Source: Bacilli bacterium
GTDB taxonomy: Bacteria > Bacillota_I > Bacilli_A > RFN20 > CAG-288
DNA: 39,670 nucleotides
Direction: 5' to 3'
Assembly: GCA_022652945.1 (NCBI GenBank)
Contig: JALCRV010000003.1
Location: 152,128-191,797 of the forward strand
Of the stretch, positions 1-33,079 are shown piece by piece. A program made the position numbers and the translations under genes. The notes below the pieces were generated by a model, which searched no databases, was not told the origin of the DNA, and saw only the letters and a program-made list of their open reading frames with translations. Position 1 is the first letter of the stretch. The number at the start of each line of letters is the position of its first letter.

Positions 1-390
1 TACCGTCGCCCCGTACTTTTTCGCTAAGGCGACCGTGGCTCTGGTATTAGCAACGTTTTCATCGTAAGGAGTCAAAGACCCATCGAACATGACGGAAGTA
101 AAGCCGATATCCAGAGCGCGATGGATATAATCGACCGTCTCGCCGTGATCGAGATGGACGACGACTGGTACTTTGGCTTTTTTAGCCATCAAAACCATGA
201 CGGGTCCGATAAAATCGAGGTTAGCGACCGGTTCGTGAAGTTGAGCGTGGGAGATGATGACCGGGACATTGTATTTTTCCACGGTATCCAAGACTGCCTT
301 CAGATTCTCGAGATTCGGGGTATTGAAAGCGCCGATGGCGCATTTATGCTCCTCCGCATACTTAAACACATCTTTCAGATTAGCTAGCAT
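1..390 (-). CDS. Class II ketose-bisphosphate aldolase (partial, N-terminal part)
   Basis: The reading frame runs from an ATG at 388-390 off the left edge, giving the first 130 residues. The start MLANLKDVFKYAEEHKCAIG and the later HLDHGE motif are typical of zinc-dependent class II aldolases of the FbaA/GatY/KbaY family. In that family the Asp of HLDHG is the catalytic acid/base and the following His a metal ligand. The family cleaves ketose (bis)phosphates to dihydroxyacetone phosphate and an aldehyde in the cytoplasm. A ribosome site (AGAAAGGA) lies about 10 bases before the ATG. It is third in order after an isomerase and a sugar kinase, so it probably performs the cleavage step of that route. 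The exact substrate (fructose, tagatose or a deoxyketose phosphate) cannot be read from this fragment. Confidence 0.9.
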   Translation of the reverse strand, partial: MLANLKDVFKYAEEHKCAIGAFNTPNLENLKAVLDTVEKYNVPVIISHAQLHEPVANLDFIGPVMVLMAKKAKVPVVVHLDHGETVDYIHRALDIGFTSVMFDGSLTPYDENVANTRATVALAKKYGATV

Positions 391-454: not shown

Positions 455-1930
455 CTATTCTAACGGCTTCAAGGCTTTGTAGACTTTAAGATACTTCTCG
501 TACTTCTCATCGTATAAGGCCTTTTTGGCTAAGTCAGGCTTGTATTCTTTCTTGACTTTGACCATCTGCTTTATCCCGTCTTCGAAACCGGAGAAGAGAC
601 CTAAGGCTTTTCCGATAATGATGCCTGAACCTACCGTTCCGGTATCCGGATTCTCTAAGGTGTAGAAAGGGATTCCGAGGACATCGGCCTTAATCTGCAG
701 CCATTTATCGTTTCGGGCACCCCCTCCGGAAGCGAAGAGACGATTAATCGGAGCTTTATCCTTGATCAACGAATCTCTTAGCATTCTTAGTTCGTAAGAA
801 AGGGACTCCAGGACCCCCTGATAGATTTCTCCTCTTGAAGTGCCCAGGTTCAGATTGACGATGGCTCCGCTGGCTAAAGGATCCATATAAGGACATCCAG
901 AGCCAGCGAAATAAGGCAGAACGAAGATATCGGTAGGCAAAGAGGAGATTTGCTTATTCATCTCGTCGAAAGGATTAAGTCCTTTCTCCGTCTCGGATTT
1001 GCAGAACTGGCTGACGAACCAATCTAAGAGAGCCCCGCAGGTCGTAATCATGCCGTAGCTGACATACTTGCCTTTTCTGGGGTAGGGGATAATTCCGAAG
1101 CCCTGTTCGCATAACGCTTCATAAGAAGAGAGGTCGGAATATAGCGGGGTTAGGCATTCGCAAGTCCCCGCGCCATCTACGCCGTCCCCTTCTGTCCAAA
1201 GTCCGACACCTAAAGCCGCGGCTATTTGATCGTGGGCCCCGGTGATGACTTTAATTGAGGAAGACACTCCCATCTCTAAAGCGACATCCTTTTTCAGCTC
1301 TCCAGCAATCGTCCCGACTTCTACCAACCGGGAGAACAGACGATAATCGATTCCAACCTTATCGAGAATCTCTCTTGACCAGGAAAGATGTTTAATATCG
1401 ATAGACATCGTTCGGCAGGCCAGAGCAAAATCCATCTGTTGAACCCCGGAAAGCATATAGACCAAGTAATCTTCGATTAGGCAGATTCTCTTAGTCTTTT
1501 TCAAGACTTCCGGATTGTGTTTTTTGATATAGAGAAGTTTCTCTAATGAAAACATCGGATTAGAGACCTGTCCAGTCAATTCCGCCAGTTTCTTATCGGT
1601 GAAAAGATTTTTTAGTTCCTTAGCTTCTTCCCGTCCGCGAGGATCGGAGTAAAGCATCGTATCGTACAGAGGATTATCTTTCTCATCGAGGCAGACAAAC
1701 GCTTCGGCAAAAGAAGTGATGCCGACGGCCATCAAGTTAGGATAAGCTTGGTAAGCCTGACTAATTAACTTTTTAACAACGTGTAGAATATCGAGCGGAT
1801 CCACCACGGATTCATTTTTATTCAGAGTTTTAGACTCATAATTCAGATGGAAATTCGAAAGTTCTTTGCCGTTATCGAAAACGGTAAGCTTACATCTGGT
1901 GGTTCCGACATCGATGCCCGCGAAAATCAT
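455..1930 (-). CDS. FGGY-family carbohydrate kinase
   Basis: This 491-residue protein has the normal length for FGGY kinases (xylulokinase, fuculokinase, rhamnulokinase). The N-terminal phosphate loop IDVGTTRCKL is at residues 6-15. The GAHDQ segment at 231-235 carries the likely catalytic base Asp234. The adenosine-site motif GGGARNDKW lies in the C-terminal lobe. Such enzymes phosphorylate a ketose with ATP in the cytoplasm. The gene begins 12 bases after the isomerase stop codon behind an AAGGAA ribosome site, so the two are co-transcribed. Placed between an isomerase and an aldolase, it most simply phosphorylates the ketose product for aldol cleavage. The substrate is not assignable from sequence alone; L-fuculose, L-rhamnulose, xylulose or ribulose are all possible. 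Confidence 0.9.
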   Translation of the reverse strand: MIFAGIDVGTTRCKLTVFDNGKELSNFHLNYESKTLNKNESVVDPLDILHVVKKLISQAYQAYPNLMAVGITSFAEAFVCLDEKDNPLYDTMLYSDPRGREEAKELKNLFTDKKLAELTGQVSNPMFSLEKLLYIKKHNPEVLKKTKRICLIEDYLVYMLSGVQQMDFALACRTMSIDIKHLSWSREILDKVGIDYRLFSRLVEVGTIAGELKKDVALEMGVSSSIKVITGAHDQIAAALGVGLWTEGDGVDGAGTCECLTPLYSDLSSYEALCEQGFGIIPYPRKGKYVSYGMITTCGALLDWFVSQFCKSETEKGLNPFDEMNKQISSLPTDIFVLPYFAGSGCPYMDPLASGAIVNLNLGTSRGEIYQGVLESLSYELRMLRDSLIKDKAPINRLFASGGGARNDKWLQIKADVLGIPFYTLENPDTGTVGSGIIIGKALGLFSGFEDGIKQMVKVKKEYKPDLAKKALYDEKYEKYLKVYKALKPLE

Positions 1931-1942: not shown

Positions 1943-3343
1943 TTAGTCGATATTGACTAAATCGTAGTTAAGATAAGTCGTAAAGGCTTCGTCGAGAATC
2001 GACTTAATATGGCCTTCGCCGACGGTGGTGTGATGCTTAAACCCGCCGCGAGCCAACTTAATTAGCTTGTTCTGCAGATCAGGAATCTCCGCCACACCGG
2101 CGGTCCCGAAGTAAGCTTGTTCAACCGGATCGGAAGTAAACTTACCTTCGGTGGTATACATAACTAATTTGCCGTCTTTGGTTTGGCAGTTGGCTAAGGT
2201 CATCTCAAAAGGCTTAATTCTCCCTTGATCGCAGCCCCAGCCGGAGCCCGGATCGGTCTTTTCAAACATTTTATGGGCGATAACGCAACCAGGCTTAGTC
2301 ATCAGTTCATTGGCGACCGGTCCGCAGTGGAAGAGGATGACTTTATTCAGATCATCTCCATAGTTGTTGTTCCAATCCAAACAGGTGGCTGGCTTATCAG
2401 AAGCCAAGGACAAAGCTTTCATCGTGATAGCTGAACAGAGATCGATTTCACAGGAAGCCGGAATTCCGCGGTTATTCAATTCGCTTAACAGAACGCAAGG
2501 GCAGCAACGTAAAACTGACTGCATTTCTGTCCAGCAGCGGATGGTGACCGCATCGAGATGGTAGTTCTCAATGTATTCATCAAAGACAACCGCGATCTTA
2601 TAAATGTTCATCGCGTTCATCTTCGGAACTTTAGTGAAATCAGCGTAGGCGTTTAAAGTCTTGATTTTCTTCAAAAGGCGAGGATCATCATCCTTCATAT
2701 TCTGGACTTTGAAGAAGACTTCTGACATATCGAAAGACTCGACGGTAATGCCATATTTCTCCAAGGCAATTTCATCAAAACGAGTGGTCTTGAAGGCTGT
2801 AGTCCGGGCGCCCATGCACCCGATGGTGAATCTCTTCATTCCACCGACGACGCGGCAGATAGCAGCGAAATCGTGAAGGTTCTCAGCGAATTCCTTGGTT
2901 AACGGTTTCACGACGTGCGGCTTCAATACCGTGAAAGGAACGTGATATTGTGAAAAGACGTCGGTGACGGAGAACTTGCCGCAGAAAGCATCGCGGCGGT
3001 TAGCAAAATCCATCTTGCCGATATCATCCGGATAGGCCTGCATCAGAATCGGAGTGCCCGCATCTCTTAAAGCGATGATGGCTCCGTTCTCGTCGACGAA
3101 TATCGGCATGCAGAGAATGACGCCATCGTACTCGCCTTTATGTTTGGCGAGCCAATCGTGGTAAACCTTTCCTTCATCCCGAGTCTCAACCGCTCCATAA
3201 CGAGTGGCTTTTTCATCCATCATTATGTAGTCGTAACCAGCATTTTTCACCGCTTGGACCATTTCCACACGAGCTGAAGCAATCAGTTCCGCCGGCATGA
3301 ATCCACGGTTTCCGAAATAAAGAGCAAAGGTAGTCTTTTTCAT
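1943..3343 (-). CDS. L-fucose/L-arabinose isomerase-family protein
   Basis: This 466-residue cytoplasmic protein resembles the L-fucose/L-arabinose isomerase superfamily: an N-terminal alpha/beta domain (ALYFGNRGFMPAEL, then YDGVILCMPIFVDENG) and a C-terminal metal-site region with CWTEMQ and CEIDLCSAITMKAL. The Glu and Asp of the latter resemble the Mn-ligand Glu/Asp of this fold. Members interconvert aldoses and ketoses. It is shorter than E. coli FucI (about 590 residues) and closer to the uncharacterised family of about 450-500 residues. Start choice: a GGAGGA ribosome site lies 9 bases before the ATG. It is the first enzyme gene of the minus-strand operon and has a repeat-bearing upstream region. 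The true sugar could be L-fucose, L-rhamnose, L-arabinose or a modified sugar. Confidence 0.82.
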   Translation of the reverse strand: MKKTTFALYFGNRGFMPAELIASARVEMVQAVKNAGYDYIMMDEKATRYGAVETRDEGKVYHDWLAKHKGEYDGVILCMPIFVDENGAIIALRDAGTPILMQAYPDDIGKMDFANRRDAFCGKFSVTDVFSQYHVPFTVLKPHVVKPLTKEFAENLHDFAAICRVVGGMKRFTIGCMGARTTAFKTTRFDEIALEKYGITVESFDMSEVFFKVQNMKDDDPRLLKKIKTLNAYADFTKVPKMNAMNIYKIAVVFDEYIENYHLDAVTIRCWTEMQSVLRCCPCVLLSELNNRGIPASCEIDLCSAITMKALSLASDKPATCLDWNNNYGDDLNKVILFHCGPVANELMTKPGCVIAHKMFEKTDPGSGWGCDQGRIKPFEMTLANCQTKDGKLVMYTTEGKFTSDPVEQAYFGTAGVAEIPDLQNKLIKLARGGFKHHTTVGEGHIKSILDEAFTTYLNYDLVNID

Positions 3344-3464: not shown

Positions 3465-4319
3465 TTATTCTTTCTCCAAAGAGGAGTAATTTTCCTTGCG
3501 GTAGCTGGTAGCTGACATTCCTTTTTCCTTCTTAAAAATACGCTCGAAATAGTTATAATCTCCGAAGCCTACTTCCGAGGCGATTGAAGAGACGCTCTTA
3601 TTGGTTTCCGAAAGGAGCTGGCAGGCTTTCTCCAGTTTCTTTTCGTTGATATATTCCGCTGGTCCGGTCTTAAGATAAGCCTTGGACATCGTATAAAGCT
3701 TCGTTCGGGAAAGGCCCATCTTCGAAGCTATTATCTTTGCGGATAGAGACTCTTCCATACATTCCTCGATGATTTTATCCAGCTTTGCAATGAACTCTTC
3801 CTTGTTAATTGAAAAAAGCCTTTCCGAAATAGCGTATTTGCCTAAAGCGAGAATAATGGTCGAAGCAGCTTGGACTTGCTCGGTCGTCTGGTAAGTCAAA
3901 GCATCGGTCATCTTTCTTTTCTCTTCATCGCTGGCGTTGATTCCGTACAAGGAGGGGAGAAGTTTATGAAATCTTTCATCTTTGTCTTGTATAGTCGTAA
4001 TCTGGCCGAACATGATATATCCGACTATGACACCGTGATATTTAAGGGAAATCGCCGATTCGGTTAAGCCTGAATAGCAAAGGAAGGTATTCAGCTTATC
4101 GCTCTTCATGCATTCCTTAAAAGCACCGATATCGGAAGTGGCACAGGCTTTTAGACCACCCTCTCTTGAATGGATGGCTGAACAGAAAGCGCAGTCGGAA
4201 GGCGGATATTCGATAATCTTGGCGAAGGAAGTATCGTAGAAAGCGATGCGGTATTTCGTTAGAACGTAAAATGATTTGATCAGTTTCGCCAGCTTCTCCG
4301 TATCGATAATGATATTCAT
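3465..4319 (-). CDS. AraC-family regulator with PocR-type sensory domain
   Basis: This 284-residue transcription factor has an N-terminal PocR-like ligand domain (about 5-150). It carries the family's Cys pattern (C43, C46, C59, C70, C81) and the stretch FLCYSGLTESAISL before GVIVGYIMFGQIT. A two-helix-turn-helix AraC DNA-binding domain follows (about 185-280; SVSSIASEVGFGDYNYFERIFKKEKGM). PocR domains are known from regulators of 1,2-propanediol use, where they sense small organic molecules. Here it lies just upstream of the isomerase-kinase-aldolase genes on the same strand, so it probably activates them in response to a pathway metabolite. A ribosome site (AAGG, about 9 bases upstream) supports the ATG at 4317-4319. 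The ligand is unknown. Confidence 0.88.
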   Translation of the reverse strand: MNIIIDTEKLAKLIKSFYVLTKYRIAFYDTSFAKIIEYPPSDCAFCSAIHSREGGLKACATSDIGAFKECMKSDKLNTFLCYSGLTESAISLKYHGVIVGYIMFGQITTIQDKDERFHKLLPSLYGINASDEEKRKMTDALTYQTTEQVQAASTIILALGKYAISERLFSINKEEFIAKLDKIIEECMEESLSAKIIASKMGLSRTKLYTMSKAYLKTGPAEYINEKKLEKACQLLSETNKSVSSIASEVGFGDYNYFERIFKKEKGMSATSYRKENYSSLEKE

Positions 4320-4454: not shown

Positions 4455-4574
4455 TCTAATAAATTTGATTTCTTGAGCATTTCTTTTTTTAGAAATTAAC
4501 TTGAAAAAAAGGATTATTTTCAATTTGCTTTGTATGCTATATTAATACAAAAGAGCACCGTACAAAAAACACCA

Positions 4575-5492
4575 ATGAATAAATTCACCGGAAAATACTG
4601 CAACGACTTCCTCGAGGGGTCCACCACCATCTACAATTACGTCCCTTTCACTAGGTATCCGTATTTGTTCTATGCGCAGTTGGCCGGTATCCAGAATATC
4701 GGGCCCAAGTATTTTAACGATTCGGAATTCTCCCAGGAGTTTCTGATTAATTACACTATGGAAGGTCAGGGTAGCTTCACCTTGTTTAATGAAGAGCACA
4801 TCCTTAAGCAGGGTGATTTGATCTTCATGAACAATTTCTACCGGAGGCTCTTTAAACCTATCGAAGGCTCCTCGTGGAAATTTGCCTGCCTGCACATCTT
4901 TCCCAACGAAATCCTCAGTCAACTTTACCAGAAGATCCTCGAGAAGCAGAAGTGGCTGATCCACGGGGTCGATGAAAATGCTGTAGTTCCTTATATTAAG
5001 CGGATAATCAAGCTTCTTTCCGCTGGTGTATCCAAGAATGAAATACCGATTTCCAACTGTATTTATGAGCTTTTATTATCGATATATTCCTTGGCTATCC
5101 CCGCCGATTCGACCGAGGTCGACTCCGAGCTTTCTTCGGTTATCACTTATATAAGAGAAAATTACTGCTCCCCGATTAATCTCTCCGACATTTTGAAGAA
5201 TACTTCTTACTCGAAAAACCACTTGGAAAGACTTTTTAAAGACCGGATGAAGATGACTATCAATGACTATCTGACAGACCTAAGATTAAAGAAGTCCCAG
5301 TCCTTAATCTTGGCCACCGATACCCCGTTTAAAGAAGTGGCTGCCCAGGTTGGTTTACCCGACTATCGTGCTCTTGTCTATATGTATAAAAAGATGTTCA
5401 GCATGTCGCCGGGGGAATATAAGGAACATGGTAAACTTCCGGCTGAACCTACCTTGGTTGATACTTTTGTACCTAACAAGACGATTGTTTGA
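4575..5492 (+). CDS. AraC-family transcriptional regulator (cupin-type sensor)
   Basis: The N-terminal half (about 30-110, with FLINYTMEGQGSFTLFNEE and LKQGDLIFMNN) looks like the AraC-type cupin effector domain. The C-terminal 100 residues form the double helix-turn-helix (SYSKNHLERLFKDRM; PFKEVAAQVGLPDYRALVYMYKKMF). An upstream in-frame ATG at 4530 lies inside a likely extended -10 (TGCTATATT), so the ATG at 4575 is preferred, giving 305 residues. No clear Shine-Dalgarno sequence is visible for it. It is divergent from the PocR/AraC gene and precedes the sugar-importer operon at 5730 by 237 bases, so it is the natural candidate regulator of that operon. The effector is probably the imported sugar, but this is inference. 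Confidence 0.85.
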   Translation: MNKFTGKYCNDFLEGSTTIYNYVPFTRYPYLFYAQLAGIQNIGPKYFNDSEFSQEFLINYTMEGQGSFTLFNEEHILKQGDLIFMNNFYRRLFKPIEGSSWKFACLHIFPNEILSQLYQKILEKQKWLIHGVDENAVVPYIKRIIKLLSAGVSKNEIPISNCIYELLLSIYSLAIPADSTEVDSELSSVITYIRENYCSPINLSDILKNTSYSKNHLERLFKDRMKMTINDYLTDLRLKKSQSLILATDTPFKEVAAQVGLPDYRALVYMYKKMFSMSPGEYKEHGKLPAEPTLVDTFVPNKTIV

Positions 5493-5729: not shown

Positions 5730-7214
5730 ATGAACGCAAAAAAGACTTTGAGGACTCTTGTAGGTGTTTGCTTGATGGTGTCTTATCTTGGCGCCTGCTC
5801 AATCGGGACTCATCTCGATTCCTCCGCCAACTCCACAGTCGGGAATTCTTCTACCTCGGGTGTCACCTCTATTTCCAATGTGACTTCCGACCTTTCTTCC
5901 GAGGATTTAGATGAGCTTGAGAAAATCCAGGCGAAATATGATGCTTCGCTTTACCAGTATGATGGGGAAGAGTGCACCTTAAGCATGTCGCACTGGGATT
6001 CAGATGGCGCGAAGGTCGAAAGAGCGGTCGTCGAAGCCGCCTTGGCTGGCTTTGAAAAGAGATACCCGAAGATCCATGTCAATCTTGATATCATCCAGAA
6101 CTACGAAACAGTTTACGGCAATTACCTAGCTGCCGGCACCGCTCACGATGTCTTCTTAGTCCCCGATGGCGATTTCGCCGCTTGGGCTCCTTCGGGCAAG
6201 TTGATGAATCTCACCCCGTATATCAACGCTTCCGAGCTTTTGACTTTTAACGATCAGGATATTTATTCTTCCTGCCTTTCCCGTTATCAATACAACTCCT
6301 CCACCGGCCGAGCTGGGAGTGGGAACCAACTCTCCTTGCCGAAAGATATCGGCCCGCAGGTTATGTACTATAACAAGGATTGGTTCGATGCCAAAGGTGT
6401 CGCTTATCCGCCTAACGATCGTATTATGACCATGGACGAAGCCACGACTATGTGGAAGAATCTGACCAAATATAGCACGGACAACAAAATCACCGGTTAC
6501 GGTGTCGCCGGCTTAGGTATCGAAGGTTTGGTCTGGTCCGGTGGCGGTGATTTCTTGAATCCTGATCGTACGGCTTTCCCGACTGACCAGGCTACTGTAG
6601 CTGGTCTGAGACAAGGTTATCAATACATGAAGGATGCCTATCTCACTAACAAGATTATGCCGCCTTCGGAGTTTAAGGGTCTGCTTGATGATTCGACTCT
6701 TTTCACTCAGCAGAAAGTCGCAACCGTTTGCGCGGGACGTTGGCAAGTCGCTTCCTTCCGTTCTTTGTCCTTTAACTGGGATGTCGCTTATATCCCCGGT
6801 TTTACCGCTGCTCCGACGAAGAATATGTGGTCCGGTTCAGTCGGTTATTCGGTCTACAGCAAGTGCGCCCATAAGGAAGCGGCTTGGAAGCTAGTCGAAT
6901 ATATCGCCTCGAAGGAAGGGCAGGAAGTCTTGTCCTCTACCGGCTTCCAGATTCCGGTCTATCATTCCTTAGCGGAAGACGCTTCTTTTAAAGCTGGAGA
7001 GATTGCCAAAGGGCCTGAGAATTATGAAGTGTTCGTTCAATCGGCAATCAATCAGTTGCCGGGTCTTTGGATGTATCGCGCTAATCAGCTCTGGAAAGTC
7101 AACGGCTACGATGTACCTTCCGAGTATCTCTTCTCCTCCGACCCTTCGACTGAAATCACGGTCGATCAGTTCTTGGAGACCGCTAAACAGAAAGTCAACG
7201 AAAATCTCGGCTAA
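5730..7214 (+). CDS. Sugar ABC transporter substrate-binding lipoprotein (family 1)
   Basis: This 494-residue lipoprotein has signal peptide 1-22 with lipobox LGAC (Cys23), then a Ser/Thr-rich tether to about residue 57. The binding domain resembles family 1 solute-binding proteins (LSMSHWDSDGAKVERAV... FEKRYPKIHVNLDII near its start, and HKEAAWKLVEYIASKEGQEVL near its end). It captures a sugar or oligosaccharide outside the membrane and hands it to the permeases encoded immediately downstream. An AAAGGAG ribosome site supports the start. It heads an operon that also carries surface carbohydrate-active candidates and a glycyl radical enzyme, so its ligand is probably the same glycan product. 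The ligand itself is not predictable here. Confidence 0.93.
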   Translation: MNAKKTLRTLVGVCLMVSYLGACSIGTHLDSSANSTVGNSSTSGVTSISNVTSDLSSEDLDELEKIQAKYDASLYQYDGEECTLSMSHWDSDGAKVERAVVEAALAGFEKRYPKIHVNLDIIQNYETVYGNYLAAGTAHDVFLVPDGDFAAWAPSGKLMNLTPYINASELLTFNDQDIYSSCLSRYQYNSSTGRAGSGNQLSLPKDIGPQVMYYNKDWFDAKGVAYPPNDRIMTMDEATTMWKNLTKYSTDNKITGYGVAGLGIEGLVWSGGGDFLNPDRTAFPTDQATVAGLRQGYQYMKDAYLTNKIMPPSEFKGLLDDSTLFTQQKVATVCAGRWQVASFRSLSFNWDVAYIPGFTAAPTKNMWSGSVGYSVYSKCAHKEAAWKLVEYIASKEGQEVLSSTGFQIPVYHSLAEDASFKAGEIAKGPENYEVFVQSAINQLPGLWMYRANQLWKVNGYDVPSEYLFSSDPSTEITVDQFLETAKQKVNENLG

Positions 7215-7232
7215 AGAGAGCGGAAAATTATC

Positions 7233-8135
7233 ATGGTCAATAAAAGCGGATTAGCCAGAAGGCATCGCAAAGACAACCTGGTCGGTTGGCTTTTCGTCTC
7301 CCCGCTCGTTATCGGGGTCACCTTGTTTTTAGGCTTTCCGCTTGTCTTCGCCATCTTGATCTCTTTCACCGATTATTCTTTGATGCAGCCTTATGACTTT
7401 TTTGAGTTTCAGTTCCACTTCATCGGGTTTGCTAACTACGCCAAGGCTTTCCGTAATGCCGACTTTATGAGATCGTTGCTGAACGCCTGCATCAACGCTT
7501 TAGGGGTGCCGATTGGGATTTCTTTGTCGATTATTCTTTCTAACCTCTTGTTGCGCCATCCGCGTTGCTCCATGTTGTTCAGGACCTTATATTTCCTGCC
7601 GACTATCTGCGGATCGGTCGTTATCACCTTTATATGGCAGTGGATTTTCACTCTGATTCCTAACTTCTTCTACCTGAAATACGGTCAATCTCCGTTCAAC
7701 ATGTTGAGCGGCAATAACTTCATGATTTCGATGATTATCATGGGGGTCTGGTCGGGATTTGGCACTTCGGTTCTGCTGATTTACGCCTCGATGAAAGGCA
7801 TCGATAAGAGCCTTTACGAAGCGGCTATGATCGATGGGGCCAACGCTGGGCAACAGTTGATCCATGTGACGTTGCCGGCGATTTCTCCAGTCTTGTTCTA
7901 CATCTTTCTGACTGGCTTATCCGGTTCTTTCCAAGACTTTGCTCGCTTCCAGGTCATGGGTTCGAATAAACCTTCTTGGTATTCGATCATGCCGGTCTGG
8001 GAAATCTATAAGCAATCGACCTCCGGTGGAAATATCGCTTACGCTTCGGCTCTAGGTATCGTCCTCGGACTTATTATCATCGCCTTCTCCGGGATTCAGT
8101 TCATCGTCTCAAAAATCTGGGTTAATTACGATTAA
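7233..8135 (+). CDS. Sugar ABC transporter permease (MalF/UgpA type)
   Basis: The 300-residue membrane protein has about six transmembrane helices and the CUT1 permease EAA loop (YEAAMIDGANAGQQ, about 195-208; conserved Gly202) that docks the ATPase. It begins 18 bases after the binding-protein stop codon and is followed 10 bases later by the partner permease. It forms half of the channel of a sugar importer. No ATPase gene lies in this operon, so energy must come from an ATPase encoded elsewhere, most simply the one at 17664. Confidence 0.94.
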   Translation: MVNKSGLARRHRKDNLVGWLFVSPLVIGVTLFLGFPLVFAILISFTDYSLMQPYDFFEFQFHFIGFANYAKAFRNADFMRSLLNACINALGVPIGISLSIILSNLLLRHPRCSMLFRTLYFLPTICGSVVITFIWQWIFTLIPNFFYLKYGQSPFNMLSGNNFMISMIIMGVWSGFGTSVLLIYASMKGIDKSLYEAAMIDGANAGQQLIHVTLPAISPVLFYIFLTGLSGSFQDFARFQVMGSNKPSWYSIMPVWEIYKQSTSGGNIAYASALGIVLGLIIIAFSGIQFIVSKIWVNYD

Positions 8136-8145
8136 AGGGAGAAAT

Positions 8146-9048
8146 ATGGAACAGACATTAGAAAGAAAGGTCATCTTCAACAAGAAGAGAAAGAACGGCA
8201 AGACCATCTTTTTCGATGTTTTGGCTTATACCTTCCTTGTCCTTATCGGCCTTTTAGTTCTTTTGCCCTTTATGATTGCGGTCATCACTTCCTTAACTCC
8301 GGAGACTGTCCTGAACGAAAAAGGTTTTCAGTTCTTTTCTGGCTACATCGATTTTGGATATTATTCTGACATTCTGACCACGAACAATTATGGAGACGGC
8401 AGTTTCCTTTTGGCTTTAGGGAATACTTTCTATTACATCCTACCGCCGGTTGTTTTGGGCCTTTTGAATTCCGCCTTAGCGGGGTACGCTTTCGCCAGAA
8501 TTAATTTCCGAGGCAAGAATGTTGCTTTCTACGCTTTGCTTTCCACGATGGTGATTCCAGGAATCATCGTAACCTTCCCGTCATATCTGCTTTTTATCCA
8601 AGTCTATAAAGTCAACGAGTGGTTCCCTTTATTTCCAATAATTGTCCCTGGAGCCTTCGGCGGAGTCGTGACGATGTTCTACTTAAAGCAGTATTTTACG
8701 GTCCTTCCAAAAGAGCTGGAGGAAGCTGCGGCGATCGATGGGGCTGGAAGAATCAGGACTTTCTTCCATATCATCGCCCCAGTTTCCACTCCTGCCTTGA
8801 TCACCCAGTTGCTTCTGGGCTTCAACGGCTGCTATAACGACTACCTCGGTCCTTTGCTTTATTTGGGTGGTAAGCCAAGTCTGTATACCGTTCAGCTTTA
8901 TGTCTACGGGCTTTCCACCGCTTATAACAAATCGTTCCCGCTGCTGATGGCGGGGGCCATACTCGCTTTACTGCCGGTGTTGATTCTCTATATGTTCGGT
9001 CAGAAGTTCTTCGTCGAAGGAGTCGTGATGACTGGTATCAAGGGCTAA
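8146..9048 (+). CDS. Sugar ABC transporter permease (MalG/UgpE type)
   Basis: The 300-residue inner-membrane protein has a short basic N-terminus, about six helices and a CUT1 EAA loop at 192-201 (EEAAAIDGAG) followed by FFHIIAPVSTPALI. It pairs with the permease encoded at 7233. A GGGAG ribosome site precedes the ATG. The length is normal for the family. The gene is followed after 15 bases by a surface lipoprotein gene, which shows that import and extracellular processing are co-transcribed. Confidence 0.94.
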   Translation: MEQTLERKVIFNKKRKNGKTIFFDVLAYTFLVLIGLLVLLPFMIAVITSLTPETVLNEKGFQFFSGYIDFGYYSDILTTNNYGDGSFLLALGNTFYYILPPVVLGLLNSALAGYAFARINFRGKNVAFYALLSTMVIPGIIVTFPSYLLFIQVYKVNEWFPLFPIIVPGAFGGVVTMFYLKQYFTVLPKELEEAAAIDGAGRIRTFFHIIAPVSTPALITQLLLGFNGCYNDYLGPLLYLGGKPSLYTVQLYVYGLSTAYNKSFPLLMAGAILALLPVLILYMFGQKFFVEGVVMTGIKG

Positions 9049-9063
9049 AAAAGGAGGAAAAAA

Positions 9064-11526: not shown

Positions 11527-11529
11527 CGT

Positions 11530-14436
11530 ATGAAGGCATTATTTGTCGGTGCGATTGTTTCATTGATGCTGCTTGGTACTTCTAGAGGTATCTATAAGAC
11601 TAATAATGTCGAAATCAAGCGGGCGAATTATTCCGCTTCGACTTGGGAAGTGGTGAAATCTAACGGTATCGCTAATCCGTATTCAATCGATACGGAAGGA
11701 ACTATTACTGAACAGGGGAATACGGGCTGGCTTGCTAACTATTGGATTAATAAGACCGATACGGTTTACGGAGATTATAAGATCTCCGCAACCATCCAAG
11801 GGACGGAAAGCCTGCCGAATAAAAGAGAGATGCACGCCGGGTTTATCCCTTGGTATTTAGATGACAACAACTACATCATGTGCTACATGCGTTGGGAGAA
11901 TACCGATAAGCCCAACAGTATGTCGGAAGTTGAAGTCACCGGCAAAATCGATGGTAATTTTATGGTCATGTGGAAAAATGACCAGTTCATCGTCAGCGAA
12001 TGGAACGATATGTGGACGGATAATAGAGCTCAAGGCGCTGGGGATGAATGTGTCTTTACCGTTGAGAAAAAGAGAACGGAAGCGAATGATTCCGATTATA
12101 TCCGCGCCTATATTTCTTGGAATGGGGAAGCGGATACTTTAATCGGCTTCCATATGTCTAGAGATGTGGTGAAATACGATGACCGAAAGGCTCATTTCGG
12201 GGTCTACGCTTATAACGATAAATTCACTTTTAAGAACATCGCGATCGTTAATGAGAATAACTCCAAGGTTTTTGCTCCGGTCGGAGATGGAATGGGACAA
12301 GGAATTAACGGGACATGGTCATATGACGATGTCGCTAAGTCTTATTCTTTAACTTCTTCCGCCTCGACGGCTTACAATGACAATCTGCTGACTTTCGATA
12401 ACAATATCGACTCTGATAACTATTCGATCAGCTCCGATATTGCTGTTACTCCGACTGATACTTCAGAATTGGGCATCCTTATTTATTATAAGGATGGCTA
12501 TAACTATTTAGCTGCGGTGATTAAAAAGGAAAACGGTGAGACTAAAGTCGGCTTTAAAGGTAAGTTCACCACCGCCGTCGGCTCTAATCTAAGTGTTAGC
12601 GAGGTGGATACCTTAGCATCATCTTCTGTTGATTTAAGTGCGATTACATCCCTTAAAACCCAGAAGAACGGTATTAAATTCAAACTATTTGTGAATGGAA
12701 GCGAAACGGCCAGCTATGAGCGCTCCTCCTGCACGGGTAAAGGCTTAGTTGGGTTTGGAGGAGCTAATATCGGCTTTACCGCTTCTAATATCCTTATTGA
12801 GAAAGTCCCTTATGTCGCTTACGACTGGTATTCGACACAGTTTGTCGGCGATACGACCTGTTACGTTTCCGCTAAGGTCAACGAAGGCGGAATCAGTTAT
12901 TCTGACGGTGTTTATACGATTCCTGATGCGGCGGTCGATAACGCGGATACTAATAACGTGACCTCTTTCTATTACGGCTCTAATTTCTATGGTGATATCG
13001 GAGTGAAGGCTACTTTCTCCGGGATTAAAGCTGATTCTATCTACGGGGTCTATCCTTGGATCCAGGATCCTGATAATTATCTTAGAGTTCTGGTAAAACC
13101 TGATGGGATTTTGTTTGAGAACCATTTCGGAGAGAATATTTCTTCTAAGCAGTACACCTTACCGGAAGGAGTTAACTACACCTCCGGCGATAAGATCCTT
13201 AACGTCGAAATCAAGTCGCAGAAAGTTTATGTTACCTGGGGTGGAGTCGATGCCTTGGAAGGCGGGTATTTCGATATCGTCGGCAATGACTTAGCCCTCG
13301 CTCCGAATGTCGGCATCGCCGTAGCTAAGAACGGACTCTTAGTCAAGAAAATCGCCACCACCGGTTTTACGCCTTACTCTGAAAGAAAAGAAGGCGATTG
13401 GAAATTCTACGGAGCGAGATTATCTTCGTGGACATTATCAGAGGACGGGAAGACTGTTGATTCTTCTTTCGATGGCGGCACCGCTTGGAAACAGACGCTG
13501 GCGCTGACCTCAATCCCGGATAAGAAAGATTATTATTACGCTTCCAAAGTCAAAGTCCACGAGGTGACCGGCTCGGACTATAAGACCGGGTTTATGCCTT
13601 ATTACCTCGATGGCTCTAACTATGTCTTCATCTGGATTTCTCAGTTTGCCGGAGTCTCGCCTGAACTAGTCGTATCCTGCATGCTTAATGGCAATCTGGT
13701 CGGCTATGAATGGCGTAAGACGGCCTTTACTTATTCCTATATGGAAACTGAAGTCCAACTAGAAGCCAAAATCGAAGGAGATGTAGTCTCCGTTTATATT
13801 AACAAGAGCTTCTCCCCGACCTTCTCAACAACCTTTGAAGGATTATCAAATCGCACCACTGCCGGAGCTTATGCTGGCTTTAACTCCGTCAGTTCCAAAG
13901 CGACCTATTACGACTATCATTTCTCGACTGATACCCGTAACTTCACGATGAATGAAAAGCCGGTCATCGAAGAAACTGGAACCAGAAAGACCACGGGAAT
14001 CATCGGCAATCGTATCACTTTGCCGATCTACACTGGGACTAACTCTTCCGATGAGGTCCTTAATCCGGTGGTTAGTGTGACCGATCCGAATGGAGCAAAT
14101 GTCGAGCTGATGTCTAACCGCTTTATCCCTGATACTTTAGGTGATTATGTCGTTAGAGTCACCTGCACCGATAACTGGGGCAATGAGGCAGAACCGATAG
14201 TCTATACGATTACGATTACTGAAGAACAGCAGACTTCTTCTTCGATAACTTCGGAGAATCCTTCCTCGGATGTGAATTCATCTCAAGGAAATAATAGCTC
14301 TCAGACCTCCTCAGAAAGCGGCAACAACAACGGGAATACCGGTGTTATTGTCGGTGCTTCTGTGGCGGGCGGAGTTGTAGTTTTAGGCGGAGGAGTCGGG
14401 CTGTATTTCTTCTTGAAGAAACGTAAACATCTTTAA
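11530..14436 (+). CDS. Cell-surface multidomain (laminin-G/DUF1080-like) protein, C-terminally anchored
   Basis: This 968-residue exported protein has an N-terminal hydrophobic signal (1-20) without a lipobox Cys. Four consecutive beta-sandwich-like lobes follow (about 25-245, 255-425, 430-615, 620-800). Lobes 1 and 4 share the pattern GFIPWYLDDNNYIMCY / GFMPYYLDGSNYVFIW, and lobe 3 has GVYPWIQDPDNYLRVL. Lobe 2 has GILIYYKDGYNYLAAV. An Ig-like domain (about 810-895), a Ser/Asn-rich stalk, one transmembrane helix (938-962) and a KKRKHL tail end the protein. The repeated motif recalls jelly-roll lectin-like domains (LamG/DUF1080). It probably binds, and may cleave, a glycan at the surface. It starts 3 bases after the previous stop codon with GGAGGG in the preceding gene, so it is translationally coupled. 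Confidence 0.72.
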   Translation: MKALFVGAIVSLMLLGTSRGIYKTNNVEIKRANYSASTWEVVKSNGIANPYSIDTEGTITEQGNTGWLANYWINKTDTVYGDYKISATIQGTESLPNKREMHAGFIPWYLDDNNYIMCYMRWENTDKPNSMSEVEVTGKIDGNFMVMWKNDQFIVSEWNDMWTDNRAQGAGDECVFTVEKKRTEANDSDYIRAYISWNGEADTLIGFHMSRDVVKYDDRKAHFGVYAYNDKFTFKNIAIVNENNSKVFAPVGDGMGQGINGTWSYDDVAKSYSLTSSASTAYNDNLLTFDNNIDSDNYSISSDIAVTPTDTSELGILIYYKDGYNYLAAVIKKENGETKVGFKGKFTTAVGSNLSVSEVDTLASSSVDLSAITSLKTQKNGIKFKLFVNGSETASYERSSCTGKGLVGFGGANIGFTASNILIEKVPYVAYDWYSTQFVGDTTCYVSAKVNEGGISYSDGVYTIPDAAVDNADTNNVTSFYYGSNFYGDIGVKATFSGIKADSIYGVYPWIQDPDNYLRVLVKPDGILFENHFGENISSKQYTLPEGVNYTSGDKILNVEIKSQKVYVTWGGVDALEGGYFDIVGNDLALAPNVGIAVAKNGLLVKKIATTGFTPYSERKEGDWKFYGARLSSWTLSEDGKTVDSSFDGGTAWKQTLALTSIPDKKDYYYASKVKVHEVTGSDYKTGFMPYYLDGSNYVFIWISQFAGVSPELVVSCMLNGNLVGYEWRKTAFTYSYMETEVQLEAKIEGDVVSVYINKSFSPTFSTTFEGLSNRTTAGAYAGFNSVSSKATYYDYHFSTDTRNFTMNEKPVIEETGTRKTTGIIGNRITLPIYTGTNSSDEVLNPVVSVTDPNGANVELMSNRFIPDTLGDYVVRVTCTDNWGNEAEPIVYTITITEEQQTSSSITSENPSSDVNSSQGNNSSQTSSESGNNNGNTGVIVGASVAGGVVVLGGGVGLYFFLKKRKHL

Positions 14437-14458
14437 AGGAATGAGATAGTCCTTTAAA
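14432..14458 (+). other. Intercistronic hairpin before GRE activase gene
   Basis: TTTAAAGGA and TCCTTTAAA form a 9-bp stem with a 9-base loop that starts at the stop codon of the surface-protein gene. There is no terminal U-run. It may stabilise upstream mRNA or insulate the activase ribosome site (AAGGGG). Confidence 0.45.
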
Positions 14459-14473
14459 TAGAAGGGGCTTTAT

Positions 14474-15334
14474 ATGATGGAAGAAACCGATCCGAGAGGT
14501 CTGATCTTCGATATTGAAGAATTCGGTATCTATGATGGACCGAGCATCAGGACTGTCGTCTTCTTAAAGGGCTGTCCTTTAAGATGCATGTGGTGTCAGA
14601 ATCCTGAAGGCTGGAATCCGTTTCCCGAAAGGATGGTTTCTTCCCGTTGTATCCATTGCGACACTTGTAAAAGAGTCTGTCCTCATAAGGATAAATGCAT
14701 CGCTTGTGGGACTTGTCTTCCTTACTGCCCGGTTAACGCTATTTCTATCGCCGGGGAATATATGAAGGCTTCAGAGCTTGCGGACAAGATCCTTGCTAAT
14801 GAAAAACTCTTAAGGCTAAATGATGGCGGGGTGACTTTCACCGGCGGGGAATGTTTAACCCAGACTGATTTTGTCCTTGCGGTTATTAAAAGGCTTAACG
14901 GTCTTCATACGGCGATTGAGACTTCCGGTTATGGAGATGAAAAGACCTTTAAGAAAATGATTGAAGCGGTCGACTTGGTGATGTTCGATATTAAACAAAC
15001 CGATCCTTTAATCCATAAGCGTTATATCGGAGTCGATAATGTTTTAATTAAAAGAAACCTCGATAATCTGATCGCTTCCCATAAACCGTTTATCGCTCGC
15101 ATCCCAGTTATCCCCGGGGTTAACGATAACGAAAAGAATTATCAGGAAACAGTTAACTGGTTAAAAGGTGCCACAAATCTCGATCATGTTGAGTTGCTGC
15201 CTTATAACCGTTCAGCTGGAGCGAAGTATCAGATGCTTAAACTGATCTATAAGCCTACGTTTGATGAAAAAGCTGATCCGTTCATCGATTTAGAAGTATT
15301 CGCTAAGGCTGGAATTAAAGCCAAAGTCATGTGA
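14474..15334 (+). CDS. Glycyl radical enzyme activating enzyme (radical SAM)
   Basis: This 286-residue cytoplasmic protein has the radical-SAM cluster motif C34-x3-C38-x2-C41 (GCPLRCMWC). An inserted two-[4Fe-4S] ferredoxin domain follows, with C59/C62/C65/C69 and C75/C78/C81/C85. The SAM-binding TGGEC motif lies downstream. This longer form, as opposed to the short PflA type, usually accompanies GRE dehydratases, lyases and decarboxylases. It abstracts a hydrogen from a Gly of its partner to install the radical. It lies 14 bases upstream of the GRE gene behind an AAGGGG site. A second ATG, three bases on, is an equally possible start. Function requires anaerobic conditions, so the host is expected to be an anaerobe. 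Confidence 0.93.
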   Translation: MMEETDPRGLIFDIEEFGIYDGPSIRTVVFLKGCPLRCMWCQNPEGWNPFPERMVSSRCIHCDTCKRVCPHKDKCIACGTCLPYCPVNAISIAGEYMKASELADKILANEKLLRLNDGGVTFTGGECLTQTDFVLAVIKRLNGLHTAIETSGYGDEKTFKKMIEAVDLVMFDIKQTDPLIHKRYIGVDNVLIKRNLDNLIASHKPFIARIPVIPGVNDNEKNYQETVNWLKGATNLDHVELLPYNRSAGAKYQMLKLIYKPTFDEKADPFIDLEVFAKAGIKAKVM

Positions 15335-15348
15335 AGGAGCAATAAAAA

Positions 15349-17343
15349 ATGGATTCCAAAAGTATTAGAAATGAACTGACAACTGAAAGATTTAATGAGT
15401 TAAGTAAGTTGATTCAGGATCCGACAAAAAGCCTGGTCTCAAGAGCGGCCTTGCGTCTTAAGTTGCTTTTAGAGGAAGAAAAGATTATTAAAGTGCCAGG
15501 AGAAGTGATCCCTGGGTATAGGACCTTTACCAAATTCCCGGATATCTACGCTCCGGGAGAAAAAGAAAGACTTCAGAAAGGGCATTATATTCACGAACAA
15601 GGCCGGGTCTGCAATATTTCTTCCGACTGGGAAGGCTCTTTAAAGAACGGTCTTTTATATAAAAGACAGATAGCGGAAGAGAACTTAAAGAGGAAAATCG
15701 GGGATTCCGATTTCCTTCAGGCGGCCATCGTCTCTATCGATGCGGTGCTTGAGTATGCTGACCGGTATGAAAATAAGGATCTTTCAAGAGCTATCAGATC
15801 GGGTGCTAAGCATTTTAAAGAAGCGCTGCAGATGTTCCGTATTTTGCATTTAGCTTTATGGGCCTCTAATGTTTACCACAACACAATCGGACGCTTTGAT
15901 CAGTATATGTATCCTTATTATGAAGCCGACCTTAAAGCCGGGCTTCTTACTAAGGAAGAAGCTTTAACTCTTTTAGAGGAATTCTTTATGTCCTTTAACC
16001 GGGATAGCGATATTTATCAAGGGATGCAGCAGGGTGATAACGGACAATCCTTAATGCTCGGCGGGGTCGATAAAGACGGGAAGACTGTTATCAATGAACT
16101 GACCTATCTTGCAATCGATGCTTCTCTGCATAATAAGATGATCGATCCGAAGATTAATCTTCGAGTTGATAAATCAACTCCGCTTTCCCTTTATGAAAAG
16201 TGCACTTTGATGACTAAGCAGGGGCTAGGGTTCCCGCAGTATTCTAACGATGATGTCGTAATCCCAGCCTTAAAAGACTTCGGTTATGAAGAAGAGGATG
16301 CTAGGAATTATACGGTGGCGGCTTGCTGGGAGTTCATCATTCCGGGAGTGGGGATGGATATTCCGAATATCGGAGCGATCTGTCTGGCTTCGGCGGTTGA
16401 TAAAGCCATTAAGAAGGATTTAGCAGCCTGTAATAGCTTTAACGATTTAAAGACTAAGGTTGCTGACGAATTAAAAGAGGAAGCCGATGCTTTAGAAAAG
16501 AGCCTTCGTAATCTTTGGATGGAACCGGCTCCTTATCAGTCAGTCTTAATGCAGGGTTGCATTGAAAAAGGACAGGACATCTCCAAAGGAGCTAAGTATA
16601 ACAATTACGGCATTCACGGGACCGGTATTTCCGATGCTGTCGATCAACTGGCAGCTGTCAATAAGCTTGTCTTTGAGGATAAGGCCTTGACTGCTGAGCA
16701 ATTCTTGAAGAAACTAGAAGGCTCCTTCGAGGATGATCCGACCTTGTTATTCTATTTAAGGACTAAAGCTCCGAAGATGGGAAGAGACAACAAAGAAACA
16801 AATCCGATTGCGGAATTCTTGATCGATGCTTTCGCTGATTCCTGGAAAGGGAAGAAGAACGAAAGAGGAGGGATTTTCCGTCCGGGCACCGGTTCAGCAA
16901 TGTACTATATCTGGCACGCCAGAGAGATTAAGAGCGTCTTAGCTGATGGACATAAGCCAACGGAAACTTTAGCGGCTAATTTCTCACCTTCGTTGCTGCT
17001 TTCCGATGCGGGTCTGCTTTCGGTTATTTCCGCCTTCTCCTGCCCTAATTTAAAGCGAGTCTGCAACGGCGGGCCTTTAACCATTGAACTTCATGATACC
17101 GTCTTCCGCAATAAAGATGGCATCGATAAAGTCGCACAGTTAGTCAGGTCTTTTGTCTTAATGGGTGGTCATCAGTTGCAGCTTAACGCGATCAGCCGGG
17201 AGACATTGCTCGATGCTAAGAAGCATCCGGAAAAATACGGATACTTAATCGTCAGAGTCTGGGGCTGGAGCGGTCACTTTGTTCAGCTGGATAAATGCTA
17301 TCAGGATCAGATTATTGCGAGAACATCTTACAAATCCGTCTAA
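15349..17343 (+). CDS. Glycyl radical enzyme, pyruvate-formate-lyase superfamily, unassigned subtype
   Basis: This 664-residue protein has the C-terminal glycyl radical loop RVWGWSGHF (about 636-644; radical Gly639), preceded by GGHQLQLNAISRETLLDAKKHPEKY and followed by YQDQIIARTSY, all standard for GREs. The thiyl Cys is C326 in AACWEF; Glu328 two residues on matches the Cys-x-Glu of GRE eliminases such as diol dehydratases and choline lyase, and not the Cys-Cys of pyruvate formate-lyase. The protein is about 100-180 residues shorter than most GREs, mainly at the N-terminus. It is encoded with its activase at the end of a sugar-import operon, so the substrate is probably a sugar-derived diol or a related polyol. 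The reaction is unknown; propanediol dehydratase activity is one option. Confidence 0.9.
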   Translation: MDSKSIRNELTTERFNELSKLIQDPTKSLVSRAALRLKLLLEEEKIIKVPGEVIPGYRTFTKFPDIYAPGEKERLQKGHYIHEQGRVCNISSDWEGSLKNGLLYKRQIAEENLKRKIGDSDFLQAAIVSIDAVLEYADRYENKDLSRAIRSGAKHFKEALQMFRILHLALWASNVYHNTIGRFDQYMYPYYEADLKAGLLTKEEALTLLEEFFMSFNRDSDIYQGMQQGDNGQSLMLGGVDKDGKTVINELTYLAIDASLHNKMIDPKINLRVDKSTPLSLYEKCTLMTKQGLGFPQYSNDDVVIPALKDFGYEEEDARNYTVAACWEFIIPGVGMDIPNIGAICLASAVDKAIKKDLAACNSFNDLKTKVADELKEEADALEKSLRNLWMEPAPYQSVLMQGCIEKGQDISKGAKYNNYGIHGTGISDAVDQLAAVNKLVFEDKALTAEQFLKKLEGSFEDDPTLLFYLRTKAPKMGRDNKETNPIAEFLIDAFADSWKGKKNERGGIFRPGTGSAMYYIWHAREIKSVLADGHKPTETLAANFSPSLLLSDAGLLSVISAFSCPNLKRVCNGGPLTIELHDTVFRNKDGIDKVAQLVRSFVLMGGHQLQLNAISRETLLDAKKHPEKYGYLIVRVWGWSGHFVQLDKCYQDQIIARTSYKSV

Positions 17344-17352
17344 GGATATTAC

Positions 17353-17385
17353 AAAAGGCGAAGGGACTATCATCTTCGCCTTTTT
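17353..17385 (+). terminator. Intrinsic terminator after the GRE gene
   Basis: AAAAGGCGAAG and CTTCGCCTTTT form an 11-bp perfect stem with a 10-base loop, followed directly by a T-run. It ends the importer-to-GRE operon. Confidence 0.9.
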
Positions 17386-17554
17386 CTATTAAAGCCTAAG
17401 AATTTATAAAGAAAAAGACATTGAGAAAACGATTTTTAGTCTTAAATAAATTCCATAAACTTTTAATTAACAGAGATTACTTTATTCTAGAGGTTTTTAC
17501 TTTGATCTTCTTGTCATATACGAATTATCAAGGAAAGAAAAACAAGCTTTAGAA

Positions 17555-17663: not shown

Positions 17664-19412
17664 ATGGAAAACCCCGCTAAAGAGATCATTAAGGATAAAG
17701 AGTTAGCTCGTCAGGAAGCCAGAGAAAAGAAGATAAAGGCTAAACAATTAGAGAAGCAGGCTCTGCGCATCCATCAGGAACTCGAGAATTATCAAAAGAA
17801 GCACAAGAAAGAGAAAAAGCAGGCTCCTTCAGATGCTTTTATTTCCTTACAGCATATCAATAAAATCTACGATAACCATGTTCAAGCGGTCTATGACTTT
17901 TCTCTCGATGTGAAGCAGCATGAGTTCATCGTTTTAGTTGGACCTTCGGGATGCGGTAAGTCTACGACTTTAAGAATGATAGCCGGCTTAGAAGATATCA
18001 CTTCCGGCGATCTTTATATCGATGGAGCCTACGCTAACGATCTCAAGCCGAAAGATCGAGGAATCGCTATGGTTTTCCAGTCTTATGCTTTGTATCCGCA
18101 TATGACCGTAGCGGGTAATCTTTCGTTTTCTTTAAGGATCAGGAAGTTTCCGACTTTAAAAGTCGATAAGGAAGGGAAACCTGTTTTAGAGATCAATCAG
18201 AAATTAATTAAGACGGTGAAAAAGCAACTTTCCGATTTAATGGAATACGCTGATTTCATTAAAGGAGAAGGTAAGCAAGAGGAGATAAAGAAAGTCGCAG
18301 CTGATATCGAAGAAACTGAAGCGAAGATTGCATATCTAGAAAAGACTCCGGTTGAAGTTTATGAAAATAAACATATGCCGAAAGAAGAAATCCGCTCTAG
18401 AGTCATGCAGGCGGCGAAGATTCTGCAGATTGAAGAGTACTTGGATCGAAAACCGAAGGCTTTGTCAGGCGGACAATGCCAGCGTGTAGCCTTAGGTCGC
18501 GCCATCGTCCGCAACGCTAAAGTTTTCTTGATGGATGAGCCGCTTTCCAACTTGGATGCTAAGCTTCGTGTCGCTATGCGCGCGGAGATTATTAAACTTC
18601 ATAACTCTTTAGGGGCGACCACAGTTTATGTCACTCACGACCAGACCGAAGCGATGACGATGGCGACAAGGATCGTCGTCATGAATAAAGGTTTTGTCCA
18701 GCAGATTGGAACGCCGATTGAGATTTATTATCATCCTTCTAATATTTTCGTCGCGACTTTTATCGGGTCTCCGGCGATGAATCTTTACGATGTCTCTTAC
18801 GGAAAGGGAAAGATTGATTTCGCTGATAATTTCTCTTTAAATCTCCCTAAAGAGGCTTCTAAAGCAGTCGATGATTTCTATAAGGATGCTTTGAAGAAAG
18901 CACAGGAAGAATTAACTGAAACAGATAAGACTTTCTTTGAAAGAACGAATTATCTTGAATTGATTTCCAAATTTGAAAAGCAGCTGGCGGAAGAGAAAGA
19001 TCTTCTAAAGAAGAAAAAGACCGAAGCTGATTTAGCTAAAGCGAAAGAAGAACTGAAATTCTGCGAGGAGGTTAACGCCTCACGGCAGGAGTTATTGGCG
19101 AACATTGAAGCTTATAAGAAAATCGGCGCTAAGAAAGCTATTCCGTTGATTTTTGGTATCAGACCGGAAGATATCTTCCTCGCTTCTTCTAATAAGGATG
19201 ATAAAGATGCCTCTAAAGGCTTTAAGATTACAGTTAGCGTCGCGGAGTTGCTCGGACGGGAATATTTCATCCATTCAGATTTCCAAGGCAAAGATCTCAT
19301 TTCGAAAATCAATTCTAAGCAATTGATCGCGGCGGGGGATAAACTGGAGCTGTCGTTTGATTTAGCTCATTTGCATCTTTTCGATCCGATTTCTAAAAAG
19401 ACTATCTATTAA
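17664..19412 (+). CDS. CUT1 sugar ABC transporter ATPase (MsmX/UgpC type) with two extra segments
   Basis: This cytoplasmic ATPase has Walker [10 protein letters not shown] (93-101), Q-loop Gln139 ([13 protein letters not shown]), signature LSGGQ (267-271), Walker B VFLMDEP (287-293) and switch His325. A C-terminal MalK-like regulatory domain has the usual [11 protein letters not shown] and FGIRPEDIF signposts. At 582 residues it is about 200 longer than the normal 360-380. The surplus is a highly charged N-terminal helix (1-55), a Lys/Glu-rich insert between Q-loop and signature (about 161-240) and a coiled-coil-like insert in the regulatory domain (about 396-490). Neither importer operon in the window has its own ATPase, so this protein probably serves both. 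An AGAGGAAG ribosome site supports the start. Confidence 0.92.
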
Positions 19413-22774: not shown

Positions 22775-22792
22775 TAGAAAGGAGGGAACATC

Positions 22793-23659: not shown

Positions 23660-23671
23660 AGGAGGAAAAAG

Positions 23672-25399: not shown

Positions 25400-25401
25400 T
25401 T

Positions 25402-30623: not shown

Positions 30624-30645
30624 AGACGAGTCGTTTTCTATTGGT

Positions 30646-30674
30646 TTAAGCAGGGCTTCTAGAACCCTGTTTAA
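30646..30674 (+). other. Intercistronic hairpin before the Ser/Ala-rich lipoprotein
   Basis: TTAAGCAGGG and CCCTGTTTAA pair over 10 bases (one G-U) around a 9-base loop. The trailing T-run is short, so it may be a weak terminator or an RNA-processing site giving the next gene a different transcript level. Confidence 0.45.
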
Positions 30675-30721
30675 CATAAATCCTTCGTGTTTAATATCTT
30701 TTTCAGAAAGGAGAACAATCT

Positions 30722-33001: not shown

Positions 33002-33022
33002 TCTTTCAGTTATTCGTCTAAT

Positions 33023-33065: not shown

Positions 33066-33079
33066 AAAAAAGGAAACAT

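Follow-up and report, generated by a model that had tools for sequence, protein, structure and literature searches.

The operon of the short glycyl radical enzyme

The window, by which we mean the whole stretch of 39,670 nucleotides that was analysed, comes from a gut bacterium and carries a gene for a short glycyl radical enzyme (GRE) directly preceded by one for a GRE-activating radical SAM enzyme (Table 1). Both belong to an operon spanning positions 5730–17343, with all genes on one strand in the order solute-binding protein, two permeases, 820-aa protein, 968-aa protein, activase, and GRE, and with intergenic gaps of 18, 10, 15, 3, 37, and 14 bp. A 7-bp GC-rich stem followed by TTTTT was found 3' of the GRE stop codon, at 17357–17385, which makes the GRE the last gene of the operon. 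An automated terminator scan of the window did not list this hairpin because its loop is 10 nt long. The terminator, together with the co-oriented ABC importer genes from position 5730 onward, bore out the proposal of an earlier note on this DNA that the GRE closes a sugar-import operon. The same note had seen no microcompartment gene nearby; in agreement with this, a test for a GRE-associated microcompartment (GRM) was negative, with BMC shell genes searched for and absent in both the window and the genome.

Table 1. Positions, strands, and bases of assignment of the features described, numbered from the first nucleotide of the window.
Feature	Position	Strand	Basis
Class II ketose-(bis)phosphate aldolase, 3' part beyond the window	1..390	-	complete as L114:13667-14518
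FGGY carbohydrate kinase, xylulokinase-like (possible partner)	455..1930	-	
Sugar isomerase carrying an L-fucose-isomerase C-terminal domain (possible partner, putative linkage)	1943..3343	-	
PocR-domain AraC regulator, head of divergent sugar-catabolic genes	3465..4319	-	
AraC-family regulator, upstream of operon	4530..5492	+	
Sugar ABC importer solute-binding protein, SBP_bac_1	5730..7214	+	profile match
Sugar ABC importer permease 1, UgpA/CUT1 type	7233..8135	+	profile match
Sugar ABC importer permease 2, UgpE/CUT1 type	8146..9048	+	profile match
Lipoprotein-like exported protein, 820 aa	9064..11526	+	weak pectate-lyase / C5-epimerase matches; lipobox read from sequence
Surface protein, 968 aa, N-terminal signal and C-terminal membrane anchor	11530..14436	+	without Pfam match
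GRE-activating radical SAM enzyme, 286 aa	14474..15334	+	CPLRCMWC motif, ferredoxin-like Cys-rich insert, TIGR02494
GRE ribosome-binding site, AGGAG	15335..15348	+	sequence
Short glycyl radical enzyme, 664 aa	15349..17343	+	PF02901, PF01228, motifs, model
Intrinsic terminator GGCGAAG-loop-CTTCGCC-TTTTT, operon end	about 17353..17386	+	read from sequence
MalK/UgpC-like ABC ATPase, own transcription unit	17664..19412	+	profile match

The ABC ATPase downstream of the terminator is probably the ATPase of the operon's sugar importer. A charged insertion of about 55 residues splits its ABC_tran match, and a further insertion lies near its C-terminus. A second glycan-use operon, at 21803–36866, encodes two ABC permeases, Big_2/CBM9 surface proteins, and GH127-like and rhamnosidase-like enzymes.

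The GRE protein and its clade

The GRE matched the profiles PF02901 (7.5e-85) and PF01228 (5.2e-16) far above their cut-offs, and was the only Gly_radical-family protein detected in the MAG of the window, which is 92.7% complete. Its C-terminal radical motif reads RVWGWS, with G639 aligned to the radical glycine, and C326-W327-E328 aligned with Cys433-V-Glu435 of glycerol dehydratase (GD). Both elements that the earlier note had pointed out, the radical Gly639 and an eliminase-type C326-W-E328, were thus upheld by alignment to their GD equivalents. The radical motif, the Cys-loop cysteine within the barrel, and the radical SAM activase (258 bits for TIGR02494, against a cut-off of 174) place the protein in the GRE superfamily, while the CXE motif, present as CWE with E328 invariant in the clade, places it in the eliminase class.

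The start codon, ATG at 15349, follows a GGAG, and a TAA in the same frame, at 15343–15345, excludes an N-terminal extension of the GRE upstream; a frameshift concealing an upstream N-terminus was likewise ruled out by the ribosome-binding site and this stop codon. The view that most of the usual N-terminal region is missing had therefore to be corrected: the start is genuine, and alignment with PflD, YbiW, and other full-length GREs revealed instead a single gap, some 56 columns wide, following residue ~57, an internal deletion common to the clade, along with small loop deletions and an N-terminus slightly shorter than that of relatives. An AlphaFold2 model built with 55 clade sequences had a mean pLDDT of 93.0 and a pTM of 0.93. 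VIA-align paired 646 residues between positions 1–664 of the model and 14–776 of 2f3o (Z 41.6), and gave Z values of 36–39 against GD, propanediol dehydratase (PDD), CutC, HypD, PflD, and YbiW. As modelled, the GRE is compact and its fold is complete.

One scan of GTDB genomes found at least 72 further loci of this kind, at least 73 with the window's own. Among the matches listed, clade members were mostly 40–59% identical to the GRE, after which identity dropped to 31%, a level represented by GREs of 799–864 aa. The clade spans at least seven phyla (Bacillota, Bacteroidota, Planctomycetota, Verrucomicrobiota, Kiritimatiellota, Lentisphaerota, and Spirochaetota, plus one Melainabacteria MAG), and its carriers are mostly animal-gut MAGs. 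The full-length ORFs, at least 65, had a median length of 689 aa (range 655–784, taken as first-start ORFs); AACWE was found in 65 of 65 and R[VI]WGWS in 64 of 65 of the full-length ORFs among the matches listed. Broken short GREs, with two ORFs or an in-frame TGA, were seen at L055:9800-11826, L070:9863-11936, and G421:C37:21704-23383, and are either pseudogenes or assembly errors.

In a 36-row tree (LG+C20), the short GREs and three divergent short GREs formed one branch with a support of 100/99, and the remaining eliminase-type GREs, among them every characterised one placed in the tree, fell on the opposite branch. One divergent row, L152, was on a long branch. The tree references HypD, CutC, and others came from plasmid and E. 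coli records, and the GD and PDD sequences from PDB alignments. A 99-row quick tree gave the same split, so that the suspicion of an unassigned GRE forming its own sequence cluster was confirmed in both trees as a branch apart from the characterised eliminases tested. Membership of a known GRE subgroup was ruled out by the trees and by missed NCBIfam cut-offs. No characterised GRE, PDB entry (best ~25–29% identity), or NCBIfam equivalog covers the clade, and a search of the open PMC literature for short GREs and for GREs that act on sugars or pentoses brought up no paper about it. Judged by sequence, the GRE with its CXE motif is of a known kind, and what is new is a subfamily outside every named subgroup tested. 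The best explanation of the activase and GRE is that they form a working pair, of predicted activity, from a new uncharacterised subfamily.

No HypD or CutC family member turned up when the window's phylum was searched. From the searches at family and phylum level, the clade seems to be rare near the window's lineage, and the short GRE may therefore have been acquired horizontally by that lineage; the base composition of its locus did not stand out.

Active site, genomic neighbours, and candidate chemistry

The catalytic cysteine and the CXE glutamate are invariant in the clade, and 24 positions were at least 95% conserved within it, with a different residue in each of the 25 GREs that served as references or outgroups. 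The clade-specific residues in the GRE were N89, H177, D266, K268, N270, H423, E580, W327, W638, and W640. Our arguments about the pocket were made by alignment to solved GREs rather than from model coordinates. GD His164 is replaced by Asn89, without exception in the clade, and GD Ser282, Tyr339, and Tyr640 by His177, Gly232, and Gly515 in the GRE; the conserved Q-P-S/N strand of other GREs has become D266-P-K268-x-N270 in the clade. The residue aligned with GD His164 is Asp in CutC and His160 in HypD, where it is essential, the H160Q variant being inactive (PMC7077986). In isethionate lyase, first-strand residues take part in binding the sulfonate (PMC8473560). The change of both tyrosines to glycine would leave room for a larger substrate, and because the leaving-group-side histidine of hydroxyl-eliminating GREs is Asn89 here, the handling of the leaving group would have to differ. 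We infer that the GRE keeps the radical relay and the CXE base but has a larger, more polar pocket and a different way of dealing with its leaving group.

In 54 of the 73 loci listed, the activase adjoins the short GRE (<300 bp, same strand). Neighbours in the same 73 loci were a XylE-like sugar porter (16), LacI (13), GH51-like (9), GH127 (6), and GH36-like (6) proteins, CUT2 parts (about 5), and a GalM-type mutarotase (3); arabinofuranosidase-type GHs and GalM mutarotase adjoin clade loci, and importers of four types (XylE-like porter, CUT2, CUT1, and GPH) occur beside short GREs. The expectation that C-W-E members always stand next to sugar importers was not sustained, as only 27 of the 73 loci listed had a recognised importer within 6 kb; some of these 73 loci were truncated, and the similarity search missed some importers. 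Many Oscillospiraceae members have housekeeping surroundings and no sugar gene near the GRE. Minimal operons consisting of LacI, a CUT2 importer, the activase, and the GRE were found at L009 and L071, suggesting that the GRE acts close to an imported monosaccharide. Related Bacteroidota account for most of the GH51-like and GH127 neighbours, and these associations are not independent observations.

In Planctomycetota and Lentisphaerota members (L013–L016, L027, and L028), no gene next to the GRE was recognised as an activase; a ThuA-domain gene follows the GRE at L014, and L028 has a similar gene. An AraR-like arabinose regulator, considered for the GntR and Peripla_BP_3 regulators of the Bacteroidota loci, was unsupported by their sequences. 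A microcompartment link at L009 was also rejected, since its shell genes lie on contig C49, about 2 kb from a GRE match in an 854-aa frame, and its short GRE on C60.

Further partner genes were found in Diplocloster (L018/L022), whose GRE operon encodes LacI, Zn-ADH, a xylulokinase-like FGGY kinase, DeoC (TIGR00126, 229 bits against a cut-off of 117), an aldo-keto reductase, a DUF4867-like protein, an SGL lactonase, and a GPH symporter. The DeoC/FGGY/Zn-ADH/SGL set recurs with a short GRE in Ructibacterium gallinarum, at 45–63% identity to that of Diplocloster; these two lineages are the only ones known to have DeoC in a short-GRE operon. In R. gallinarum, one operon-like run (L178:4362-16520) holds three different GREs, two activases, a GH43-like protein (named from sequence), and GH36, and only one of the three GREs has CXE, the others reading SACCTF and NSCMGI. 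The genomes of Diplocloster modestus and D. agilis (G414 and G415) each had an unusually large number of GRE-like matches, 9–11. Genome G244, from the same taxonomic order as the window, matches the window's operon in composition but not in gene order: a single run encodes the activase, the GRE, a CUT1 importer, and three exported proteins. In the window's own genome, an intracellular GH51 arabinofuranosidase (477 bits to 1pz3) is encoded just upstream of the window, close to the genes for the ketose-phosphate aldolase, the FGGY kinase, and the Fucose_iso_C isomerase. A search for AraA in this 92.7% complete MAG found none, and the isomerase (1943–3343) had no sequence match in the PDB. The isomerase, kinase, and aldolase near GH51, with no detectable AraA, possibly form a non-canonical arabinose route.

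Taken together, these data make a sugar or sugar-derived substrate plausible, and better supported than it was in the earlier note; elimination chemistry on such a substrate is what we infer from them. Our preferred but tentative reading, to which we give somewhat less than an even chance, is that the GRE is a radical eliminase that converts an arabinose-type monosaccharide, or one of its simple derivatives, into a deoxy-sugar. The activase would place the radical on Gly639, from which it would pass to Cys326; the Cys326 thiyl radical would abstract hydrogen from a monosaccharide-sized polyol, and, with Glu328 of the CXE motif as the base, a hydroxyl or ring oxygen would be eliminated to give a deoxy-sugar or a deoxy-sugar-like carbonyl compound. 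The likeliest substrate would be a pentose of the arabinose type or one of its simple derivatives (the alditol or the aldonate). Arabinofuranosidases would detach it from plant glycans, and it would be either imported or liberated within the cell; in several species the product would then pass to a kinase and to deoxyribose-phosphate aldolase. The partner genes would suit a cyclic aldose, an alditol, or an aldonate alike: DeoC in the operon favours a 2-deoxy-aldose phosphate downstream, and the lactonase and dehydrogenase favour an oxidised intermediate. The arabinose identity and the downstream pathway are speculative, and GH36, GH35, and GH42 neighbours would fit galactose too. Against the preferred reading as a whole, we counted Asn89, the importer-less loci, the non-independent Bacteroidota loci, and the fact that DeoC operons are known from no more than two lineages.

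A broader reading, which we consider possible but would not expect, sees in the short GREs a carbohydrate counterpart of NrdD: enzymes that would use radical chemistry to deoxygenate sugars, free or activated, and perhaps those in furanose form or of arabino or galacto configuration. In a catabolic branch, an arabinose-type sugar would become a deoxy-sugar for cleavage by deoxyribose-phosphate aldolase; in a biosynthetic branch, GREs encoded next to UDP-galactopyranose mutase in capsule-type loci would modify sugars. The three divergent short GREs (genomes G012, G326, and G255; loci L116, L152, and L154) keep N89, G232, CWE, and W638 and sit, with activases, among polysaccharide-synthesis genes, including a flippase and glycosyltransferase-like genes (named from N-terminal sequence only), with UDP-galactopyranose mutase in the G326 and G255 loci. 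This sister group is sporadic, with one in 294 genomes in the order of G255, and its members are candidate GREs of glycan biosynthesis.

It is unlikely that the GRE is a small-diol dehydratase, similar to GD or PDD without a microcompartment. By this route, the isomerase, kinase, and aldolase would split a ketose-1-phosphate into DHAP and glycolaldehyde or lactaldehyde, and the aldehyde would be reduced to ethylene glycol or 1,2-propanediol and then dehydrated. The nearest solved relatives, GD and then PDD, and the divergently encoded PocR-type regulator, Fucose_iso_C isomerase, FGGY kinase, and ketose-bisphosphate aldolase are consistent with it, but GD H164, Y339, and Y640 are lost, the clade stands apart from GD/PDD, shell genes are absent, and the pathway enzymes are not generally beside clade GREs; moreover, the direct pairing with an importer suggests that the GRE acts on the imported compound. 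We also think it improbable that the reaction is a non-elimination one on a sugar, that is, C-C cleavage, epimerisation, or isomerisation. Such a reaction would fit the replacement of the hydroxyl-eliminase histidine by Asn throughout the clade, the remodelled Cys and Gly loops (AACWE and VWGWS), and the lack of any other enzyme in the minimal operons, whereas the invariant CXE glutamate of eliminases and the absence of the double Cys of PFL argue for elimination.

A ring-opening lyase of the YbiW/PflD kind, acting on an anhydro-sugar or its phosphate, is quite doubtful. YbiW and PflD were crystallised with anhydro-sugar phosphates, Gly232 occurs as in PflD, and sugar genes are neighbours in the clade, but the GRE falls outside the PflD and YbiW clades, no fsaA-like neighbour was recognised, and the importers are ABC/MFS, not PTS as flanks pflD, so that an unphosphorylated substrate is expected. 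Finally, although the GRE is shorter than any characterised GRE, the chance of a decayed or artefactual ORF, or of a truncated ordinary GRE, is negligible in view of the intact frame with a ribosome-binding site, a pLDDT of 93, the same length class and all catalytic residues in at least 65 full-length homologues, and a deletion conserved across phyla.

Comparison with known glycyl radical enzymes

Among the reactions that set anoxic guts apart, some of the most distinctive are carried out by GREs, which are oxygen-sensitive radical enzymes; few of them have known substrates. The subfamily described here has a signature matched by no characterised GRE compared, and its gene neighbours include deoxyribose-phosphate aldolase along with importers of the pentose type and hydrolases of arabinosides; should the GRE indeed deoxygenate a common plant sugar, this would be a new anaerobic sugar pathway. 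The named-strain carriers, Diplocloster and Ructibacterium gallinarum, make the subfamily testable.

HypD, CutC, and isethionate sulfite-lyase have the same eliminase architecture with CXE but different substrate-binding residues, and the GRE fell far below the curated cut-offs for HypD (NF043068, 258.9 against 1100 bits) and CutC (TIGR04394, 207.4 against 1050 bits). It likewise failed as a pyruvate formate-lyase (TIGR01255, 62 against 994 bits), its Cys loop being ACW and not CC. NrdD, the class III ribonucleotide reductase, is a GRE that deoxygenates a furanose and has fold similarity to our model (Z about 20), but with no sequence-level match found, a different Cys loop, and no nucleotide-binding features in the GRE, it serves as an analogy only. 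PflD and YbiW were crystallised with 1,5-anhydromannitol-6-phosphate and 1,5-anhydroglucitol-6-phosphate, respectively (PDB titles), and PflD, a sugar-phosphate GRE, has, like the clade, Gly at the GD Tyr339 position. Both differ from the GRE in forming separate clades, outside which it fell in the trees, in being full length (765 and 810 aa), and in having His at GD-164 and PTS or aldolase partners.

The best sequence and Foldseek matches of the GRE are GD (1r8w) and PDD (5i2g), at ~25–29% identity. Membership of the GD/PDD group failed, as the GRE belongs to a separate clade (100/99) without a microcompartment and differs from GD by the internal deletion of ~56 residues and by H164N, S282H, Y339G, Y640G, V434W, A762W, and Y764W. 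With both enzymes, it has in common the ten-strand barrel, the Cys and Gly loops, the CXE motif, and the activase.
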